The notes under the pieces are model-generated. The model searched no databases and was not told the origin of the DNA. It saw only the letters and a program-made list of their open reading frames with translations. This document shows, piece by piece, positions 1,708-13,013 of a DNA stretch of 13,113 nt. Source of the stretch: an uncultured Opitutia bacterium (GTDB lineage: Bacteria > Verrucomicrobiota > Verrucomicrobiae > Opitutales > MB11C04); the NCBI GenBank assembly GCA_913048545.1, contig CAJWWH010000044.1, positions 1 through 13,113 on the forward strand, in the 5' to 3' direction. Each line of letters begins with the position of its first letter. Within the stretch, counting starts at the first letter, position 1. The position numbers were made by a program, and so were the translations under genes.

Positions 1708-3282
1708 ATGAATCAAGATTTTTACATTTCTCATTCCCAATGCCAATTTTGGGCAGATTTTTCATTTGTTGACTTTTCTGGAGACTACCTGTCTTCAATG
1801 GATCAGTCCATTAGCCGAGCACTCAAGCAAATGCAGGATCTAGAGGGCGGAGAGATTGCCAATCCGGATGAAAACAGGATGGTCGGGCACTACTGGCTCC
1901 GAAATGCTGACCTCGCACCAACCGAAAAGCTAAAGAAGGCGATTAAAGAAACTTTGGAAAAAGTCAGGGAGGTATCGAGTCAGGTCCATTCCGGTGTTCT
2001 TCAATCTCCACACGGTCCATTTACCGACCTTCTGGTTATTGGTATTGGTGGATCCGCACTTGGACCACAATTTGTGGGCAGAGCCTTGGGGGATCCGCAG
2101 AGTGACAGGCTGAAAGTTCACTTTTTCGACAACACCGATCCCGATGGAATCGATCTTACCCTTGCTGAAATAGGGTCCGCTTTAAAAACTACGCTCGTTG
2201 TAGTTATATCCAAGTCCGGGGGCACGGCTGAAACACGGAACGGTATGCTGGAAGCGGAAAATGCCTTCTCCACGGCCGGTTTGGATTTCTCCAAGCATTC
2301 TATCGCGATCACCGGAGAAGGTAGTAAACTGTACGAATACTCGCAACAAAATGGATGGCTCGACTTCCTGCCGATGTGGGACTGGGTCGGTGGCCGAACA
2401 AGTGAAACTGCCGCGGTCGGATTGCTCCCCGCCGCACTTCAAGGTATAGATATCGATAATTTTCTTGCGGGTGCCAGGGAAATGGATGACTTAACCAGAA
2501 ATTCAGATTTTAGAAAAAACCCGGCCGCCATGCTCGCACTTACATGGCACTTTCTCACCGGAGGAAAGGGGTCAAAAGATATGGTAATCCTGCCTTACAA
2601 GGATCGGTTAGAGCTTTTTTCCAAATACCTGCAACAGCTTATCATGGAATCACTTGGTAAGGAAAAGGACCTCGATGGAAACATCGTTCATCAAGGAATT
2701 TCAGTTTATGGGAATAAGGGCTCAACGGACCAGCACGCCTATGTTCAGCAATTGCGCGAAGGGGTACCCAATTTTTTTGCCACCTTTATCGAAGTCCTGA
2801 AGCACCGCAATGGAACCTCCATCGAGGTGGATAACGAAGGAATGAATTCGGGAGATTACCTCCATGGATTCCTTCTCGGCACGCGAGACGCACTCTACGA
2901 AAAAAATCGGAAATCGGTGACCCTGACAATTTTAGAGGTTAATCCGGCAGCAATCGGCAGATTAATTGCGTTGTTCGAACGGGCAGTTGGGTTGTATGCT
3001 TTTTTAGTCAATATAAACGCCTACCATCAACCAGGCGTGGAAGCGGGAAAACAAGCGGCTTCAGCCGTTTTGGCTATCCGCAAGTCGGTCATTGAAAAAC
3101 TTAAGTCAGAGCAAGGGGTTCCCCAAACAGCCTCCCAATTAGCAAACGCAATTGAGCAAACTGAAAAAACTGGTTGGGTGTTCAAAATTTTGGAAAACCT
3201 CGCAGTCAATCAACCCAACCAGTTTGAAAGAAGGAGTGGAGAAAATCCACTCGAAGATCTTTTTCTCGCACGCCAGGACTAA
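1708..3282 (+). CDS. pgi: Glucose-6-phosphate isomerase
   Basis: Interconverts glucose 6-phosphate and fructose 6-phosphate in glycolysis and gluconeogenesis; cytoplasmic. The protein has 524 residues and two SIS folds. Visible motifs: [12 protein letters not shown] (110-121), [16 protein letters not shown] (165-180), [14 protein letters not shown] (225-238), MESLGKE with the expected catalytic Glu314, DQHAYVQ with His343, and [14 protein letters not shown] with Lys448. The GGRT and AYHQ variants differ from the classic signatures (GGRF/Y, DQ) and resemble the cyanobacterial/chlamydial type as I remember it. The ATG is 4 bases after the ilvD stop, suggesting one transcript, and no Shine-Dalgarno is evident. 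Its TAA overlaps the stop codon of the convergent ExbD-like gene within CTAA at 3279-3282. The 3' end also carries a 13-bp inverted repeat (3167-3225) that may terminate the opposite operon. Confidence 0.96.
3167..3225 (-). terminator. Candidate terminator for the minus-strand motor operon, inside pgi
   Basis: A perfect 13-bp inverted repeat: AAACTGGTTGGGT at 3167-3179 and its exact complement at 3213-3225, with a 33-base loop. Read on the minus strand, the second arm ends directly in a run of six T, as in an intrinsic terminator. It starts 54 bases past the stop codon of the minus-strand gene ending at 3279. That gene and pgi share their stop codons, so no intergenic room exists and any terminator must lie inside pgi. 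On the plus strand no T-run follows. The loop is longer than in typical terminators, so this remains a candidate. Confidence 0.42.
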
Positions 3283-4364
3283 TCCAGCACATTGGCCGGT
3301 TTTTTAGGTGGAACCGCTTTAGGCTTGCCGGTGGATGGCTTAGGCTTTGGTCGGGCAGCCAAATATGCCTTTCTCCCCACCACTCGATAACCCCAGTCGT
3401 ACGGCCACCAGTCACTTCCGCGATGTGCAGGCTTCCAACCAGCAGGAAATTTCCTTTGATTCGAAAGATCACGCGCCGCTAAGTAAGCACCAAAACTATC
3501 CGGAAAAACTTCAAATAAAAGGTAGTGCTTTGTTGGATTTAATCCACCCAGAGCTTTAAGATAGTTCGAGTTTGGCTTGCTCATTCCAGTTTCATCCTCA
3601 CCGGCATTGGCTTTTCTCTCGATCACAAATCGTAAGACTTTATCAGGACTCAGCTTAGACTGAACCGTGACTGAAGAATCTCCGATTTTTTTATCATTAA
3701 TCAGCTTCATTAGCTTCGCCCCTTCATACTCTCTGTCCTTATTGGGTTTGAGCCCGGACTGGGCAACGACTGATTTAACACGGTTTTGAAGACCAGAATC
3801 GTCAACTGAAAAAATTTCCCCTCCCCTGCATAGGAATCGGAAAGGCTTTGCCCCGGGGGAGGCTGGTTTAGGATCCGGCAAACTCACCTCCTTACTCAAA
3901 GATTCTGTGCCTCCCTTGGGTGCCTGGACAAGTAGTCCCTTAACTTTTTTAAACTTTACCTCTATCGCATTTTTACTGCTGTCCAACTTTGCCTTTTCTT
4001 TTCTAAGGTTTTGCAATGCGGGAGGGGCAGGAGGCATATTTTTCTTCTTTTCCAAGACTTCTTTTTCCAACCTGGAAATTTCCTGAATCAATTGTATTTG
4101 TCCCTTATTCTGCGCGGCCATTTTAAGTTGTAATTTTTTCTTTTCCTCCAAAAGGGCTTTTTTTTGAGACTCAAATTGCTGCATTGCTAACTCCATAAGC
4201 TCCTTGGAATTTTCTTCCTTTTTTTCATCCACGATCCGCTTGACCGCCGAGTCTGCTCCCAACTGTACAACAATTAATAAAATAATCAGAATACCAACCA
4301 CCGTTGTGATAGTATCCAAAAGTGAATCAAGGCTTCCCCCCTCATCTTTCTTTCTTTTTTTCAT
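3279..4364 (-). CDS. ExbD-like membrane coiled-coil protein, aspartate-bearing (second of pair)
   Basis: A 361-residue single-pass protein, last gene of the channel operon. A basic N-terminus is followed by one membrane segment (about 18-35) preceded by LDSLLDTIT. Asp17 sits where ExbD/TolR proteins carry their essential aspartate. A coiled coil rich in Lys, Glu and Gln runs about 40-145, then a Pro-rich linker, then an ExbD-like periplasmic domain in two halves: [13 protein letters not shown] (175-187) and [20 protein letters not shown] (281-300). These halves match the neighbouring 328-residue protein, so the two are paralogues with different inserts. Trp-rich (310-324) and Lys/Pro-rich (337-361) segments end the protein. 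Its ATG overlaps the upstream gene's TGA as ATGA at 4361-4364, implying translational coupling. Canonical ExbD is about 140 residues, so the coiled coil and insert are additions. No OmpA-like peptidoglycan-binding domain is seen, so it is not an ordinary MotB. The ExbD assignment rests on topology, motif and context. Confidence 0.8.
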
Positions 4365-5347
4365 GAGCCCTTAAAAAGAGATAGGTCTATTTCCCCTTCA
4401 CCATCCAGGGGTAACTGTCCAAACTTACACCCCATACTTTGACAAACGGATGAAGCGTTATACCAAGAGGAAAAGCCTTTTGAGCGAAGCAGAAAAATAA
4501 CATACCGGGATTCGGGATCGGGCAGCTTGGCCTTTCTTGCCTCCTCGTATTTATAAATAATTTTGCGTGAACCAGGATCCAATTGAAGGGCATTCAATTG
4601 GATGTCCTTCCCTTTTTTATCCCTCAGTACAATGTCACTCCCCTCCCGTTTTACAAACCGAGCATCCATTTTACTTCCCTGAGCACTTCTCCAAGTCCTG
4701 TAAGGAGCTTCCTTGACCAGTTTTTGAATGATCGCCTTGAGCTTGGCATGCGATTTGATCTGTGCAGTTGCAATATCAAAGTGCTCTCCACTCTTTTCGT
4801 AAACCCGAACGCCTTCTGCCCGGCATTCAATAAATGTGGGTTCAAGTTCTCCCCCCATGCCGGATCCGCTCTGCTTAACCACCATGGTGGCAAATTTTTC
4901 CGGATTCTTCATCAATTCCCATTCGCTTTCTGCCTTTTCCAGGTTTTTCATTACACTTGCCAACTCTGACCGAACCTTAACCACTTCTCCCTGAATTTCT
5001 TTACTCTTCTTGTTTTCATCGGCTCTTTTTTTTGCCTCCGCAGTCAGGGAAACCATTTCTTTTTTTAACAATTCTTTTTTTTGGGGATCTATTTTCTTAA
5101 GTGGATTATTTCGAATTTCACCTATCTCCTGACGCAACTTTTCAATTTCCTCTTTTTTTTCTTTAATTTTGTTTTGAAACTCCTCGTCATCTTCCAACGC
5201 AGTCTCAATCTTCTCGTTCACTGCTTCCGGATCAATCTGGGCAATCACAATTGCAGTGATCATAAGAGTAAGAATTCCAATCACGCAGGCTAGAATGCTG
5301 AGAAATGGGAAAAGCGAAATCTGTAAATCTGCTTTTTTCTTTTTCAA
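4361..5347 (-). CDS. ExbD-like membrane coiled-coil protein with an SHD1-like insertion (first of pair)
   Basis: A 328-residue single-pass protein. KKKKADLQ precedes ISLFPFLSILACVIGILTLM and the rest of one membrane helix (about 12-37). This aligns with the ExbD N-terminus (PF-I-D), but Ser17 replaces the usual aspartate. A charged coiled coil spans about 40-150. The periplasmic part begins TFIECRAEGVRVY (171-183), is interrupted by an SHD1-like domain (about 217-267), and resumes at RYVIFLLRSKGFSSWYNASS (281-300). The first and last parts resemble the 361-residue neighbour. The start is TTG at 5347: an in-frame TAA lies 12 bases upstream and the next Met is residue 29, inside the helix. No Shine-Dalgarno is visible. 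It lies 34 bases after the channel gene and overlaps the next gene by 4. The expected role is a stator or rod subunit that turns proton flow into movement in the periplasm; this is inferred. Confidence 0.82.
   Translation of the reverse strand: MKKKKADLQISLFPFLSILACVIGILTLMITAIVIAQIDPEAVNEKIETALEDDEEFQNKIKEKKEEIEKLRQEIGEIRNNPLKKIDPQKKELLKKEMVSLTAEAKKRADENKKSKEIQGEVVKVRSELASVMKNLEKAESEWELMKNPEKFATMVVKQSGSGMGGELEPTFIECRAEGVRVYEKSGEHFDIATAQIKSHAKLKAIIQKLVKEAPYRTWRSAQGSKMDARFVKREGSDIVLRDKKGKDIQLNALQLDPGSRKIIYKYEEARKAKLPDPESRYVIFLLRSKGFSSWYNASSVCQSMGCKFGQLPLDGEGEIDLSLFKGS
4547..4699 (-). other. SHD1-like domain within the ExbD-like protein
   Basis: Residues 217-267 of the 328-residue protein read RTWRSAQGSKMDARF, then REGSDIVLRDKKGKDIQL, then a short linker and DPGSRKIIYK. 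This is the order typical of SHD1 (SLA1 homology domain 1) as it appears in many Planctomycetes and Verrucomicrobia proteins: RxW, a short beta strand with A-x-[FL]-V, a GxxVxLxxxxGKxIxV-like hairpin, and a final [LQ]xxxDxxxI. The domain separates the two halves of the ExbD-like periplasmic fold. The assignment is by eye from motif memory and needs a profile search. Confidence 0.6.
4577..4603. repeat. 11-bp perfect inverted repeat inside the SHD1-like coding segment
   Basis: ATCCAATTGAA at 4577-4587 and its exact complement at 4593-4603, with a 5-base loop. It codes for IQLNALQLD on the minus strand. No T-run follows on the minus strand, so it does not look like a terminator for the operon. 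It could form a hairpin in the messenger between the two ExbD-like genes' coding parts, or be chance from the near-repeated codons CAA TTG. Confidence 0.55.
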
Positions 5348-5381
5348 TGAATAACGGGATTAATGCAGTGGAAATTAATTA

Positions 5382-6437
5382 TTATTCATTTTGCTCCTCG
5401 AACGAGGTATTTTGCATGATCTGATTAAACTGGAGGGCGACCTGAGTCATTTGTTCAGCAACCAAGCTTTGAGACTCTTGAAGTTGCAGGAGATAAGCCT
5501 GAAGGTTTTCAATTCGCCCCATGGTGTCTCCGGATTCCAAATTACCGACCTCTCCGTGTGGCTCGCGCAGACGCTTAAGAAAATACTCATTGCAGTACTC
5601 GTCTACCTTGTTCAGTAAATCCTCCTCATTCTTTTGCATCACACTGGTGGGAAACATCACCCAAAGACTAAAAATCAAGGAGACAAGCGTAGTGTCAAAC
5701 GCCTCACTCAAACCTCCCGTTACCTGTCCAAGCTGCTCCTTGATAACCTCAATATCCGCGGCGGCACCCATCTCTCCTCCGAAGCTCGATACCGCATCAC
5801 TAATGCCAAGAACTGTGCCGATAAAACCAAGTATTGGAATTGCCCAAATAAAAACCTTGATAAGAACATAACTTGAATCGACCATTGTGGCGTCGATTTC
5901 AGATTGAGACTTGAGCATATCCGCTGTCTCCGTGTGATTCTTCCTGACGCTGAAGTGCTCTAACCCCCGCAAGATTCTCGTTAATAAAAAACTTTCCCTT
6001 GGATTAAAACCCAGGCGATTGATATGGGCACCAAAATGCGGCAGGTTCTCAACGCGGATATCCTGACTAATATCCTCGGGCAAAAGTTTAAACTGCATAA
6101 TATTAAGTTGACCTTTGAGTTTTTTCCTCTTCAGGAACAAAATCGCAAAAGACCAGCAAGCTAAGTAGGTCAAAACATAAGGTACCCAGCCCCGCTCGTA
6201 AAAATAGTCCGATAAAATTTGCGTGTTCGGTGAAATTCTAAAAATCAAAATAAATAAATAAAAGACCACTTCAACGCCTAGTCCAATTAAGGCAGTGATA
6301 CCCATCGATACTGAAGTGGCAGAAGCATTGTCAAACTTTCCCATTTCATCTGTGCTTCGTTGCATCATGTTAACTTGAGCCGCCCTTTTTTTTGCTTGCA
6401 TCGGGACTTTTTGAATTTTTTGCGAATTTTTCTGCAT
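5382..6437 (-). CDS. MotA/TolQ/ExbB-family proton channel protein
   Basis: Inner-membrane channel subunit that would pass protons and drive the two ExbD-like partners encoded just downstream. With the ATG at 6437 it has 351 residues. Membrane segments lie at about 44-66, 85-102, 189-214 and 245-268. The family signature is clear: IPILGFIGTVLGISDAV (200-216, with GTVLG) and GGLSEAFDTTLVSLIFSL (241-258), carrying the polar residues (Thr208, Thr249/250) that line the channel in ExbB/TolQ. A Gln-rich helical tail (about 305-340) may be a coiled coil. The reading frame stays open to an ATG at 6590, but that would overlap the divergent gene at 6533 and add an uncharged-to-mixed stretch with no family match, so 6437 is preferred; 6401 is another option. 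No Shine-Dalgarno is evident. It is the first gene of a three-gene operon. Known relatives include TonB, Tol and flagellar motors; here the cargo is unknown. Confidence 0.88.
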   Translation of the reverse strand: MQKNSQKIQKVPMQAKKRAAQVNMMQRSTDEMGKFDNASATSVSMGITALIGLGVEVVFYLFILIFRISPNTQILSDYFYERGWVPYVLTYLACWSFAILFLKRKKLKGQLNIMQFKLLPEDISQDIRVENLPHFGAHINRLGFNPRESFLLTRILRGLEHFSVRKNHTETADMLKSQSEIDATMVDSSYVLIKVFIWAIPILGFIGTVLGISDAVSSFGGEMGAAADIEVIKEQLGQVTGGLSEAFDTTLVSLIFSLWVMFPTSVMQKNEEDLLNKVDEYCNEYFLKRLREPHGEVGNLESGDTMGRIENLQAYLLQLQESQSLVAEQMTQVALQFNQIMQNTSFEEQNE

Positions 6438-6532: not shown

Positions 6533-6904
6533 ATGTCCAAGACCTTAAATAAAGATGGGACTCCCAGAAAGATTGGGAGTGGAAAAACAAAAGGAGCCGG
6601 TTGCTATGCTCAAGTTACTCTGGCTGAACTCCAGGAAGTTTTAAGCAATGATGCCAAAATTCAAGTCAGTCGGGTATGGCTCAAAAACATTGGACTCCTT
6701 GAAGAGAATGCTCAAAAGAAATTACCGTCCAAAGCCCAGGTAAAATCATCGCCTACCCAAACCAAAGATTTACCCACTCCCAAAATTATCCGAATAAACA
6801 GCAAAAAAGAAGGTACTGGGCAATCCAACGACACACAAAGTAATGAAAGTTATGAGCCTCCCCCGCTTTTCGCAACCGGAGAAATCAAACTAGACCAGTA
6901 TTAA
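6533..6904 (+). CDS. Small basic hypothetical protein
   Basis: A 123-residue protein I cannot assign to a named family. The N-terminal third is rich in Lys, Gly and Thr (LNKDGTPRKIGSGKTKGAG at 5-23) and resembles the start of small verrucomicrobial proteins with a similar KDG-PRK-GSG-KGxG opening. A short predicted alpha/beta region follows, VTLAELQEVL (28-37) and KIQVSRVWLKNIGLL (42-56). The second half is polar, probably disordered, and ends GEIKLDQY. No signal peptide or membrane segment is seen, so it is probably cytoplasmic. The basic opening and the VSRVWLKNIGL helix could suit nucleic-acid binding, but that is speculation. It is transcribed away from the channel operon and converges on the lipoprotein gene ending at 6922, 17 bases away. 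The start has no Shine-Dalgarno. Confidence 0.68.
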   Translation: MSKTLNKDGTPRKIGSGKTKGAGCYAQVTLAELQEVLSNDAKIQVSRVWLKNIGLLEENAQKKLPSKAQVKSSPTQTKDLPTPKIIRINSKKEGTGQSNDTQSNESYEPPPLFATGEIKLDQY

Positions 6905-6921: not shown

Positions 6922-7575
6922 TTATCCGAAAGGGTCAGGCTGAGGATTATCCGCAGATTCTTCCAAGGGATCCAGGGGGGGAAGTCCTTCTGGTAACGGG
7001 GCAAAAGGAGCGGGTGCAGTGCTTTCCTCATTGGGCAAAGCGGGCACGGCGTCAAATGGCAGGGGAGCAAATGGAGTATCATCGCTAGAAGGTTCAGTTG
7101 TAACGGATGGAAAATCAGCATCAGCCGAAATCTCAACAGAATTTTCATTGGGGCTCTCAATAACCTCACTCGACTGGGCTGGACTAGGGTCAGGTAAATT
7201 ATCCAGGTTAATTCTATTCAAAGATGTGCCTTGATCATTGTTTTGTTCTTTTATGATTCTTAAAGCAGTGGATGGACTCGCTTCTAAATCCTCTTTTTTA
7301 ATATCTCTGACCCACCACTCCTTGTATTCTAAAGTTCCATCCTCCTTATACTCCTGAATCGCTCCCCACCGTGTCCCTCCGACCATGGGGATCAACATTC
7401 TTCGCTCATGGTCATATTTATTCCGGGCAAGCCATGCTCTTTCAACCGCGGCTTTTGGTTTTGCAGGACGAACAAATTCTTTTTTTTGATAGCCATAATT
7501 TTGCGCACCCGTACAACCCCCAAAAAATAGTGCCAGCAGTAATGGAAGAGTAATATTAATTATTTTCATCGGCAT
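6922..7575 (-). CDS. Proline-rich lipoprotein, paralogue of the one at 12408-13013
   Basis: A 217-residue protein with a lipoprotein signal: MPMKIINITLPLLLALFFGG then Cys21. A conserved block at 44-98 includes VERAWLARNKYDHERR, a G-x-x-x-E-Y segment, and LEYKEWWVR. This block matches the lipoprotein at 12408-13013 (VQQAWNARYQYDLENRR, INYDQYWV). The C-terminal half is acidic and Pro-rich, with two copies of PFAPLP 22 residues apart (168-173 and 190-195), each followed by a P/L/D-rich stretch. It is probably anchored in a membrane with the tail exposed. The ATG at 7575 or at 7569 (Met3) could start it; neither has a Shine-Dalgarno. It lies 19 bases after the lipoprotein gene at 7595-8071 and is probably in one transcript with it. 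Function unknown. Confidence 0.82.
   Translation of the reverse strand: MPMKIINITLPLLLALFFGGCTGAQNYGYQKKEFVRPAKPKAAVERAWLARNKYDHERRMLIPMVGGTRWGAIQEYKEDGTLEYKEWWVRDIKKEDLEASPSTALRIIKEQNNDQGTSLNRINLDNLPDPSPAQSSEVIESPNENSVEISADADFPSVTTEPSSDDTPFAPLPFDAVPALPNEESTAPAPFAPLPEGLPPLDPLEESADNPQPDPFG
7282..7446 (-). other. Shared N-terminal domain of the paralogous lipoproteins, copy 1
   Basis: Residues 44-98 of the 217-residue lipoprotein. It aligns with residues 31-86 of the lipoprotein at 12408-13013 over V-x-x-AW-x-AR-x-x-YD-x-E-x-R, a glycine-containing middle, a G-x-[LI]-x-Y step, and a [YW]WV ending followed by a basic stretch and [DN]L. I do not know a named family for it. Confidence 0.6.
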
Positions 7576-10672: not shown

Positions 10673-11578
10673 TCACTTCGAGTTCGTAAGAACTTCAGAG
10701 GAATTCTCGTCTAAAATAAAGTTTCCACTACGAATAAGTGTCAATATCTGCCCTTCATTTGCATAACTGGGGTCCGACACTTGCGTTGCATCCAAAAACT
10801 CTAAATACGAAAAGTTTTTTTGTACTAAGGTCGCTTTTAAACGGAAGGATAAATTTGAGGTTGCACCTTCATTTTTAGTTAAAAATTCCATCCCTGCACG
10901 CAATCCTTCCACATATCCAAAATTGATAAAAATTCCTTTCCCGGAAGGTGCACGGCTTGCAATGGTGACTTCTTTCGGCTCTGCATAATAAAGGTGAAAG
11001 GGCTTTTTTATTCCTTTCATTAATCTGTTCAAATCCTCATCGAAACTTTCCTTGGCTATATTCCTTTTCGCTTCAAGATTACTTAACTCAAGTGCCTTCT
11101 CGTCCGCTTCTTTTTTGTGTGAAAGTAAAGTTTGAAGAATTTTTGATTTCTCATCTTCCAACCTTTTTCTTTTCTCCTCGAGTGGTTTCTTTTCAGACTC
11201 TATTTCCTCCAATGGGGCAAGCGCAGAGAGAAGCTTGGTTTCCAATTGTTTCAATTCTCCCGCCTTATCATCTTTTTCTTTTTCAATTTCAGTTTGTCTC
11301 GGAACAAACCCGTCAATTTGAGATTTTAAATCTTTTATTTGCCCCAAAAAGCCCTCTTCTTTATCACGAAAGTCACCGCGTGCCCGGTAAAGACCAGATA
11401 AAGCAGCTTCGGATTCATTTTTATCAATTTCCAACTGCAAAGATAATTGGTTTAGCCTAACCTTGGTCTGTTCCACATCTGACTTGACTGAACTGGTGTC
11501 AAACTGACCAAGAAGCAGGAAGACAATCAAGCCAACGAGCGAGAGCAAAGTCACAAATCTAAAGATAAATAAGATCAA
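10673..11578 (-). CDS. Membrane-anchored coiled-coil protein with C-terminal beta domain (second of tandem pair)
   Basis: Starting at TTG 11578 gives 301 residues. A membrane helix lies at about 2-24, a Lys/Glu-rich coiled coil at about 30-190, and a C-terminal domain from about 195. The latter has GKGIFINFGYVEGLRAGMEF (213-232), matching the G-x-x-x-G-[LI]-x-x-x-M-x-F step in the upstream protein, followed by beta-strand-like segments. GAGGAG, 10 bases upstream of the TTG, is the one clear Shine-Dalgarno in the window and decides this start; the frame is also open to a TTG at 11596 (307 residues), which has none. It overlaps the preceding gene by 20 bases, which suggests coupled translation. 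The pair look like paralogues sharing anchor, rod and head. A rod-shaped envelope role is plausible, but the function is unknown. Confidence 0.8.
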   Translation of the reverse strand: MILFIFRFVTLLSLVGLIVFLLLGQFDTSSVKSDVEQTKVRLNQLSLQLEIDKNESEAALSGLYRARGDFRDKEEGFLGQIKDLKSQIDGFVPRQTEIEKEKDDKAGELKQLETKLLSALAPLEEIESEKKPLEEKRKRLEDEKSKILQTLLSHKKEADEKALELSNLEAKRNIAKESFDEDLNRLMKGIKKPFHLYYAEPKEVTIASRAPSGKGIFINFGYVEGLRAGMEFLTKNEGATSNLSFRLKATLVQKNFSYLEFLDATQVSDPSYANEGQILTLIRSGNFILDENSSEVLTNSK

Positions 11579-12404
11579 GTTTTGAAAACTCCTCAAGTTT
11601 GCTGGGGTTACCGAGTAAGGGAATGATCATGGCCACGCAGTGGTCAAATCCGACTTTTTTTATTTCGACTTGGCAAATCGATTGACCTTCTGCCCGCACT
11701 GCGAATCTCATTTTTTGCTCAATACCGTGATCTTTTCCGATCGGAAGCATAAGCAAGCCCGAAGTTAAATCTAGTTTTGAAAATTCGACACTCACCCTTT
11801 CCCCCCGGTCTAACCACGGGCGTTCGTAAAAATCTTTTTGTAACGCGGATATTGTTTTATCATAGTGATCCTTAAGAACTCCGGTCTCTTTATCGTAAGT
11901 GGCAATTTCATAACCTAAATCTTCTTTTCTTTGCTTTTCACCCAAAATCTTATTCTCCGTTTCTGTTATTTTTGATTGGAGAGTTGGTATACTGAGGGTC
12001 ATCGCACGATTTTCAACTCGAGCGGCTTCAATCCTGGCGTCCGCACTCCCCAAACTCACTTTATGCTTTTGAATTTCCGCGGATAGCTCGTCCGATTCCT
12101 TTTGGGCACTGGCAATAACTTGATTCATTTCATCACGCTTGCGGGTAAGATCGGAAACTTCATCAACAAAGGCATTTGCTTGATCTTCGAGCTCCAGATT
12201 TTTTCTTTTTTCCCGGGCTAAGCGGTCTTCTTGCCCTTTTTTTGCCTCATCCAGTGCCAGTGTCAAATCGGAAATCTTTAATTTAAGTTCTGAAAGTTTT
12301 CCTTGGGAGTATTCAATTTCTGCCTGTATGGAAAAAATCTTCCATGCCCCGATCAGACAGAAAAGCAATGCCAGTGAATTAAGAATGTAAGCTGACTTGA
12401 TCAT
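11559..12404 (-). CDS. Membrane-anchored coiled-coil protein with C-terminal beta domain (first of tandem pair)
   Basis: A 281-residue protein starting at ATG 12404. A membrane helix (about 7-24, YILNSLALLFCLIGAWKI region) is followed by a long coiled coil (about 28-190) of Lys, Glu, Asp and Gln heptads. A C-terminal domain starts around 203 with VSVEFSKLDLTSGLLMLPIG (204-223), then GKDHGIEQKMRFAVRAEG (223-240) and CQVEIKKVGFDHCVAMI (244-260). The G-x-x-x-G-[LI]-x-x-x-M-x-F step and following strands resemble the next protein and recall small beta barrels at the ends of envelope proteins (MreC- or FlgT-like), but I cannot assign a family. The gene lies 3 bases after the lipoprotein gene and overlaps the next by 20, so all three are probably co-transcribed. 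The orientation (N-in, rod in the periplasm) is inferred from the lysine near the N-terminus and the lone helix. Confidence 0.83.
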   Translation of the reverse strand: MIKSAYILNSLALLFCLIGAWKIFSIQAEIEYSQGKLSELKLKISDLTLALDEAKKGQEDRLAREKRKNLELEDQANAFVDEVSDLTRKRDEMNQVIASAQKESDELSAEIQKHKVSLGSADARIEAARVENRAMTLSIPTLQSKITETENKILGEKQRKEDLGYEIATYDKETGVLKDHYDKTISALQKDFYERPWLDRGERVSVEFSKLDLTSGLLMLPIGKDHGIEQKMRFAVRAEGQSICQVEIKKVGFDHCVAMIIPLLGNPSKLEEFSKLDLIYL

Positions 12405-12407
12405 AGA

Positions 12408-13013
12408 TCACAGAGGGGGTAGCGGATCAAATGGAGAAGGTGGTTGGGCTTCGGTATCTGCGGGTATTCCAGGACCATTTAAATTTGAGTCCGGGAAAGG
12501 AGGAGCGCCTGGTGAATCCATAGGAGGAAATAAATCAGCAGGAGGCTCTTCTGAGTCAATCGAAATTCCCTGAGGTAAAAAAGGAACTGGCATCGAATCA
12601 TCAAATTCTTCCGTTGCCTCCACTTCATCCCCACCCTTCTCATCTTCATTACTTGCGACTTCGGAGAGTTTTAGCTTTCGAGCTTCAATTAAATTTCGAT
12701 TTGCCAAGTTCCACCTATTTTCACGTGCAGAATCAAGTTTAGCCTCATGGTGCTTCATGAGATTCTCTCCCTTAAACGGTCGAGTGACCCAGTATTGATC
12801 ATAGTTTATTCTTCCATGCTCATCCCTGCCGGTAGCTCTTCCAATCTTTTGGTTTTCATAAATTGAAACGATTCTGCGGTTTTCCAAATCATATTGATAC
12901 CTGGCGTTCCACGCCTGCTGTACTTTTGAAACTTCATTATCGTCCAATGGTCCGCAGCCGATCGACCAGAGGAAAGAAATCATTAAGTAACACTGTAAAG
13001 TATAATTTTTCAA
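12408..13013 (-). CDS. Proline-rich lipoprotein, paralogue of the one at 6922-7575
   Basis: A 201-residue protein with a probable lipoprotein signal, MKNYTLQCYLMISFLWSIG then Cys20; the -3 Ser and -2 Ile are not ideal for a lipobox. Residues 31-86 hold VQQAWNARYQYDLENRR, GRDEHGRINYDQYWV and KGENL, matching the lipoprotein at 6922-7575. A helical Asn/Arg-rich part, an acidic linker and a Pro-rich tail follow (PPMDSPGAPPFP at 163-174, PSPFDPLPPL at the end), like the PFAPLP tail of the paralogue. The start is TTG at 13013: an in-frame TAA lies 9 bases upstream, and the next Met (residue 11) would leave too short a signal. It is 3 bases before the first coiled-coil gene, so it probably heads that operon. 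Function unknown. Confidence 0.82.
   Translation of the reverse strand: MKNYTLQCYLMISFLWSIGCGPLDDNEVSKVQQAWNARYQYDLENRRIVSIYENQKIGRATGRDEHGRINYDQYWVTRPFKGENLMKHHEAKLDSARENRWNLANRNLIEARKLKLSEVASNEDEKGGDEVEATEEFDDSMPVPFLPQGISIDSEEPPADLFPPMDSPGAPPFPDSNLNGPGIPADTEAQPPSPFDPLPPL
12756..12923 (-). other. Shared N-terminal domain of the paralogous lipoproteins, copy 2
   Basis: Residues 31-86 of the 201-residue lipoprotein, the counterpart of residues 44-98 of the lipoprotein at 6922-7575. Shared positions include AW-x-AR, YD-x-E-x-R, a G-x-[LI]-x-Y step, WV, and [DN]L. Confidence 0.6.

Follow-up and report, generated by a model that had tools for sequence, protein, structure and literature searches.

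A channel gene followed by two partner genes

We analyzed a 13,113-nucleotide stretch of DNA (the window) from an uncultured Opitutia bacterium (assembly GCA_913048545.1, contig CAJWWH010000044.1), in which a MotA/TolQ/ExbB-type channel gene, here called C, is followed on the minus strand by genes for two single-pass membrane proteins, A and B. All three open reading frames (ORFs) described in the original prediction, which had been made from the letters alone, were present. C (5382..6437) encodes a protein of ~351 aa when read from the Met at 6437, and matched PF01618 with 36.5 bits (cut-off 22.9, E 4.6e-9). This start fits a relative, L001, which has equal ORF spacing to K-V-P...KKRAAQVNMM; searches with C were run from a later Met at 6401 or from the whole ORF at 6590. 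C carries the motifs PILGFIGT and FDTT, and T196, T237 and T238 (numbered from Met 6401) were invariant in 25 aligned rows; by their motifs, these Thr residues may be equivalent to TolQ Thr145/Thr178. A sequence search of C against PDB chains returned nothing useful, and PADLOC, run on C, A and B, gave one weak ZorA match for C (E 2.5e-4). At Planctomycetota and Roseibacillus loci (L021, L022, L026, L036, L046, L062 and others) the C protein starts with a zinc-ribbon-like CxxC...CPxC stretch, which is missing from the C of the window.

A (4361..5347, minus strand; 328 aa, TTG start) has an LFPFLS pore helix, a helical stalk and a predicted TolR/ExbD-like periplasmic domain, with an insert resembling SHD1 (SLA1 homology domain 1) at residues ~214-270 (4538..4708, minus strand). 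B (3279..4364, minus strand; 361 aa, ATG start) has an SLDSLLDT pore helix with D17, a helical stalk, a periplasmic domain and a Pro-rich tail. The stop of A and the start of B overlap in an ATGA (4361..4364, minus strand), an arrangement that suggests translational coupling of the two genes.

Conservation of the C-A-B unit

Scanning genomes with the B alignment gave 75 loci (76 sequences with the window), titled Opitutia and other Verrucomicrobiota, Planctomycetota, Kiritimatiellia, Myxococcota and one Spirochaeta bin. Iterated profiles recovered C, A and B on a single strand and in that order at 63/75 loci, which bears out a conserved three-gene unit. Among the 12 others, the contig starts inside the unit or just ahead of it at L009, L014 and L044, L057 is without C and the middle frame of L038 is unclear. 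A and B were separated by -4 to +9 nucleotides in 51/63 pairs and by -4 in 22/63 (window included; the B start was picked by a scripted rule). No other gene family was kept as widely over the 76 sequences; the runner-up, which resembles a common oxidoreductase, was found in 28.

Linkage was incomplete, which counts in part against the original prediction: B was without A and C nearby in 7/75 loci (L023, L028, L029, L030, L040, L041 and L074; at L029 just 515 bases lie upstream, yet its neighbours recur at the others). The six B-alone Planctomycetota loci (L023, L028, L029, L030, L041 and L074, three of them titled Gimesia) have neighbours in common, one of which appears FHA-like.

Strong matches to A and B fell in the same genomes: 7/199 in the Planctomycetota sample (A at E < 1e-40, B at E < 1e-50) and 9/240 in the Verrucomicrobiota sample (A at E < 1e-39, B at E < 1e-25), with cut-offs chosen after viewing the gaps in the lists. 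Weaker matches occurred in all four sample searches without one-to-one pairing: in the lists, G045 and G160, for instance, have A but no B, and G202 has B but no A. The ones inspected were sister sets or of no identified kind. A was also found in 7/112 Myxococcota genomes and in 21/42 genomes of the family of L001, taken as the nearest to the window, and B in 6/103 genomes of its order. In three Planctomycetota genomes, G056, G077 and G189, C and A stood together with B far away on the same contig; G332 has A and B on separate contigs, A close to a contig end. Since A and B are both present though unlinked in G056, G077 and G189, their separation speaks for a shared function and not against it.

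A and B are paralogues with predicted stalks

Canonical ExbD and TolR partners are stalkless homodimers of ~140 aa per chain with an Asp on both pore helices. A and B are two different proteins, and a profile-profile alignment (E 4.1e-19 over 258 columns) confirmed, well beyond chance, that they are paralogues, as the original prediction had proposed from two short motifs. It had further assigned to each a coiled coil of roughly 100 residues between membrane helix and periplasmic domain. AlphaFold2 modelled helices over this length in both partners, though with only moderate confidence there (A 40-53, 55-80, 88-111 and 116-147; B 44-108 and 115-147), which supports a long helical stalk. A heptad signal exceeded shuffling in B (p 0.003) but not in A (p 0.33, for a single phase over the whole stretch).

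Between the pore Ser/Asp and the first motif of the periplasmic domain, the median span was 153 residues in A and 145 in B (52/64 pairs readable, 3 of which were plain misreads for B). Over 22 distinct pairs, misreads excluded, the spans of A and B were correlated (Spearman 0.60, p 0.003; 0.54 without the longest pair); all 52 rows gave 0.47. As the rows are related to one another, these values are only suggestive of stalks that run in parallel and are matched in length. From helix length, the stalk is estimated at ~15 nm.

Relation to ExbD and TolR

The original prediction called the N-termini of A and B ExbD-like. Neither protein matched PF02472, which was likewise not among the 25 families listed (of 45 for 70 A members, of 35 for 72 B members), and hhalign gave no significant alignment of either with the ExbD profile. 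Direct assignment to ExbD failed in Pfam, NCBIfam, PADLOC and hhalign, and the weak matches of A and B (SMC, JetC, PbeC and the like) were read as coiled-coil noise. The pore motif and bridging relatives do support an ExbD-like N-terminus. P0233, a coil-less cyanobacterial A of 153 aa, aligned with the A profile (E 7.8e-16), with the ExbD profile (E 2.5e-4, at a probability of 43%) and, under the 25.4 cut-off, with PF02472 (E 0.0036, 17.8 bits). Its relatives have P-F-L-S in 120/120 among the matches listed of 516, and some are annotated 'biopolymer transport protein ExbD' by some sources. A second bridge, L170, has a B-like domain and L-N-V-T-S-F-C-D, and also reached PF02472 under the cut-off of 25.4 (E 0.0036, 17.8 bits).

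For the placement of the two partners in the ExbD/TolR/MotB fold, the profile searches went in part against the original prediction, as both missed PF02472; the model of the periplasmic domain of A resembled the TolR/ExbD fold. Foldseek found no match for the A and B models at E 0.001 or better, and ExbD/TolR was not among the 50 rows listed for the structure search with the B model, which excludes nothing. No vWA domain was matched in A or B by Pfam. The SHD1-like insert of A, which the original prediction did not mention, was found in Opitutia-type genomes.

One partner lacks the pore aspartate

In the profile-profile alignment, Ser17 of A aligns with Asp17 of B. The pore motif reads P-[LMF]-[ILV]-D in ExbD, P-F-L-S in A and S-L-L-D in B. 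ExbD proteins from the same genomes had P18 and D21 invariant in 24 rows, which had been picked by a pattern already containing that P and D. The Ser of A was found in 66/66 sequences (loci and window), in 107/107 intact proteins among 120 matches listed of 745 (the other 13 being N-terminally short), at 8/8 places in the Planctomycetota sample, in 6/6 of those read among 7 Myxococcota and in 7/9 of the Verrucomicrobiota sample. Against this rule, the A proteins of L153 and L154 (Verrucomicrobiota) have I-P-F-L-D. The Asp of B was present in 103/103 intact proteins from the protein search (9 were short), in 8/8 Planctomycetota and 9/9 Verrucomicrobiota of the profile samples, and in 74/74 of the loci scan, a count biased by a scan pattern that included that Asp. 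Of the two partners, B has a candidate proton-carrying Asp in its pore helix and A does not. This asymmetry was absent from the original prediction: B retains the Asp of the ExbD/TolR position and A is without one.

The missing Asp also suits a different arrangement, in which B would pair with itself inside the pore (5:2) and A would be a force transducer, its helix docked outside the pentamer like that of TonB or TolA. TonB and TolA are likewise without the pore Asp, and A stays beside C in G056, G077 and G189, where B is unlinked. Both TonB and TolA bind the pentamer laterally (PMC12204202). However, A is paralogous to B over most of its length, its P-F-L-S occupies the position of the ExbD P-x-x-D (two A proteins read PFLD there), no SHLS/His motif was seen in its helix, and its stalk span is near that of B. 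We consider this arrangement unlikely, although it is the strongest competitor of a pore shared by A and B.

A second reading of the Ser is that C-A-B is a gated ion leak or a sensor and not a motor, the missing Asp of A preventing rotation and the stalks merely gating the pore. Known axles (ExbD, TolR and ZorB) carry an Asp on each helix, and here one is missing. On the other hand, a published view lets one of two Asp carry the proton and give the power stroke (PMC12215075), so that a single Asp may do. In addition, the alignments show no variation at D17 of B or at the channel Thr of C, in line with a role for proton passage. We regard a leak or sensor as improbable.

Sister operons, coil-less sets and gene neighbourhoods

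Sister operons follow the same C-A-B plan; we coined the labels CAB1 for the present kind and CAB2 and CAB4 for others, in which not every partner was read. In CAB2 (L117, L119, L156, L158 and L204) A has FAFQD or FSFQD and B has LLLDT, thus Asp in both; one partner was read at L159, L160 and L205. CAB4 has a long A with FPFLA or FPFLT (L113, L115, L118 and L192) and a B with DSFLD (L144 and L146). A tree built from 39 channels set the 28 that belong to C-A-B sets apart from those of the ExbB and MotA type, along a long branch whose support (77/99) is not firm. CAB1 was not one clade, its Myxococcota and Spirochaeta rows grouping with CAB2.

Short stalkless sets were found in genomes of the Verrucomicrobiota sample, with FMS (L171, 846-1397) or FQN (L172) in A and FTD in B (L172, where the set lies at 1498-2721 on the minus strand), so that the helices read carry Ser or Asn in A, and Asp in B. 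Coil-less C-A-B sets were also present on two cyanobacterial plasmids. On that of Anabaena cylindrica (L207, 2664-5243), with Ser in A and Asp in B, the set follows a type III-B cmr6 and a CARF-HEPN gene; on that of Microcystis (L215, 4585-7185), it comes after a helicase gene that PADLOC assigns to HKD+Snf2, and one gene higher up stands a gene for a 2TM/SLATT effector.

These plasmids, together with the weak ZorA match of C, raise the idea of a Zorya-like defence device whose motor would sense phage damage to the envelope and act via partner effectors. The neighbourhoods read in Cyanobacteriota are two only. In the window, no nuclease or helicase domain was detected by Pfam in the 10 ORFs scanned, nor any ZorC/D/E-type domain in the same ORFs. 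3' of B lie a convergent gene which we take to be pgi and then a presumed ilvD, both named from reading of the sequence, and the families of these neighbours recur in 17 and 16 of 76 loci (window included). Searches with B returned nothing from 50,697 phage records and a single partial match from 72,556 plasmid records. Among the alternatives considered, a defence role for the stalked operon seems to us the least probable.

In agreement with the original prediction, neither genes for TonB, TolA, TolB or Pal nor flagellar genes turned up near C-A-B (Pfam on 10 minus-strand ORFs including C, A and B; plus-strand ORFs judged from sequence only), and no transducer or effector gene of known type was recognised nearby. 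TolB_N was found in 2/22 genomes with B, both from Myxococcota-titled loci. We dropped the absence of TolB as a sign of functional replacement, since the Verrucomicrobiota sample is mostly without it too (TolB in 7/145 genomes, no match in 138/145).

Upstream of C, a small divergent ORF (6533-6904, plus strand) recurs in 16/76 loci. As it sits between C and a lipoprotein gene, co-transcription of C-A-B with the upstream lipoprotein genes is not claimed. By BLASTP (E 4e-9), the lipoprotein-like proteins encoded on the minus strand at 6922-7575 and 12408-13013 are paralogous to each other, and a family with such a protein was present in 19/76 loci, all Verrucomicrobiota-type by title or the window. 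Two overlapping genes (10673-11596 and 11559-12404, minus strand) both encode membrane-anchored coiled-coil proteins, with no significant similarity to each other; they may resemble MreC. The window contained no Rfam match or tRNA, and a promoter/terminator scan gave no more signals than shuffled sequence.

Comparison with known systems

C-A-B shares with ExbB-ExbD and TolQ-TolR the PF01618 channel, a P-x-x-D-related pore motif and, in the model of A, a domain resembling TolR/ExbD, but its partners are unlike and stalked, and TonB, TolA, TolB and Pal were not recognised near it. GldLM likewise is an ion-driven channel with a long periplasmic partner; it consists of two genes, and its GldM is large and multi-domain.

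AglRQS, the Myxococcus xanthus gliding motor, shows the same plan, with two unlike ExbD/TolR-type genes behind a single TolQ/MotA-like channel gene in one cluster. AglQ (162 aa) and AglS (194 aa), which both match PF02472 (PMC3169522), do not have the length for a stalk of this kind, and each reportedly bears the conserved Asp (PMC9389320); A and B have no PF02472 match, and A has Ser. Heterologous tolR-like pairs and TPH-vWA motors occur in PVC bacteria, and TolQ-like channels with two unlike partners in Planctomycetes and Verrucomicrobia (PMC12204202). By that source's description, these partners are often accompanied by genes for TPR and vWA proteins, or are themselves vWA proteins that each carry an Asp, in contrast to the Ser of A. 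Zorya ZorAB (5:2) is akin to C-A-B in its channel, to which C gave its weak ZorA score, but is accompanied by partner effector genes, none of which was recognised in the window; for ZorB, PMC11890865 describes a peptidoglycan-binding domain and a critical Asp. Periplasmic domains of very large size are recorded for the generic group of PMC12505986. No report of an Asp-less partner was found in a literature search by titles and abstract openings, with few subscription papers. C-A-B is a real, conserved and poorly annotated motor-type operon; its two-partner plan, which the original prediction did not connect with known systems, was already known from AglQ/AglS and the PVC tolR-like pairs (PMC12204202). 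What appears to be new is its stalks and, more than these, a partner without Asp.

A proposed single-aspartate motor

The gene unit, the paralogy and co-occurrence of A and B, the Asp/Ser asymmetry and the similar stalk spans were observed; for stoichiometry, proton path, motion and target we propose the following. We lean, by a modest measure, towards C-A-B being an envelope motor of the ExbBD/TolQR/MotAB kind, driven by the proton motive force, with one A-B heterodimer in the pore of a C pentamer. Five C subunits would form the channel, as in its family, and one A helix and one B helix would share the pore. Because A has Ser at that place, protons would pass via Asp17 of B alone. C may then turn around, or strain, the A-B axle, and the ~100-residue helical stalks, near-equal in A and B, would transmit the movement to the TolR/ExbD-like periplasmic domains, which may bind the cell wall or some further partner. 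The SHD1-like insert on A in Opitutia-type genomes probably confers partner specificity.

More tentatively, and with somewhat less than even confidence, we suggest that C-A-B is a natural heterodimeric 5:1:1 proton motor with one protonatable axle helix, using five protons per turn instead of ten, in Verrucomicrobiota, Planctomycetota, Kiritimatiellota, Myxococcota and Cyanobacteriota, whose coil-less forms moved into defence islands. The use of two Asp per axle in 5:2 motors is debated. Should A and B form a pair inside the pore, an axle with just one Asp has persisted in nature for a long time, which would offer a direct test of the need for two proton sites. A long-stalk motor would also be added to the envelope machines of bacteria mostly without a detected TolB.
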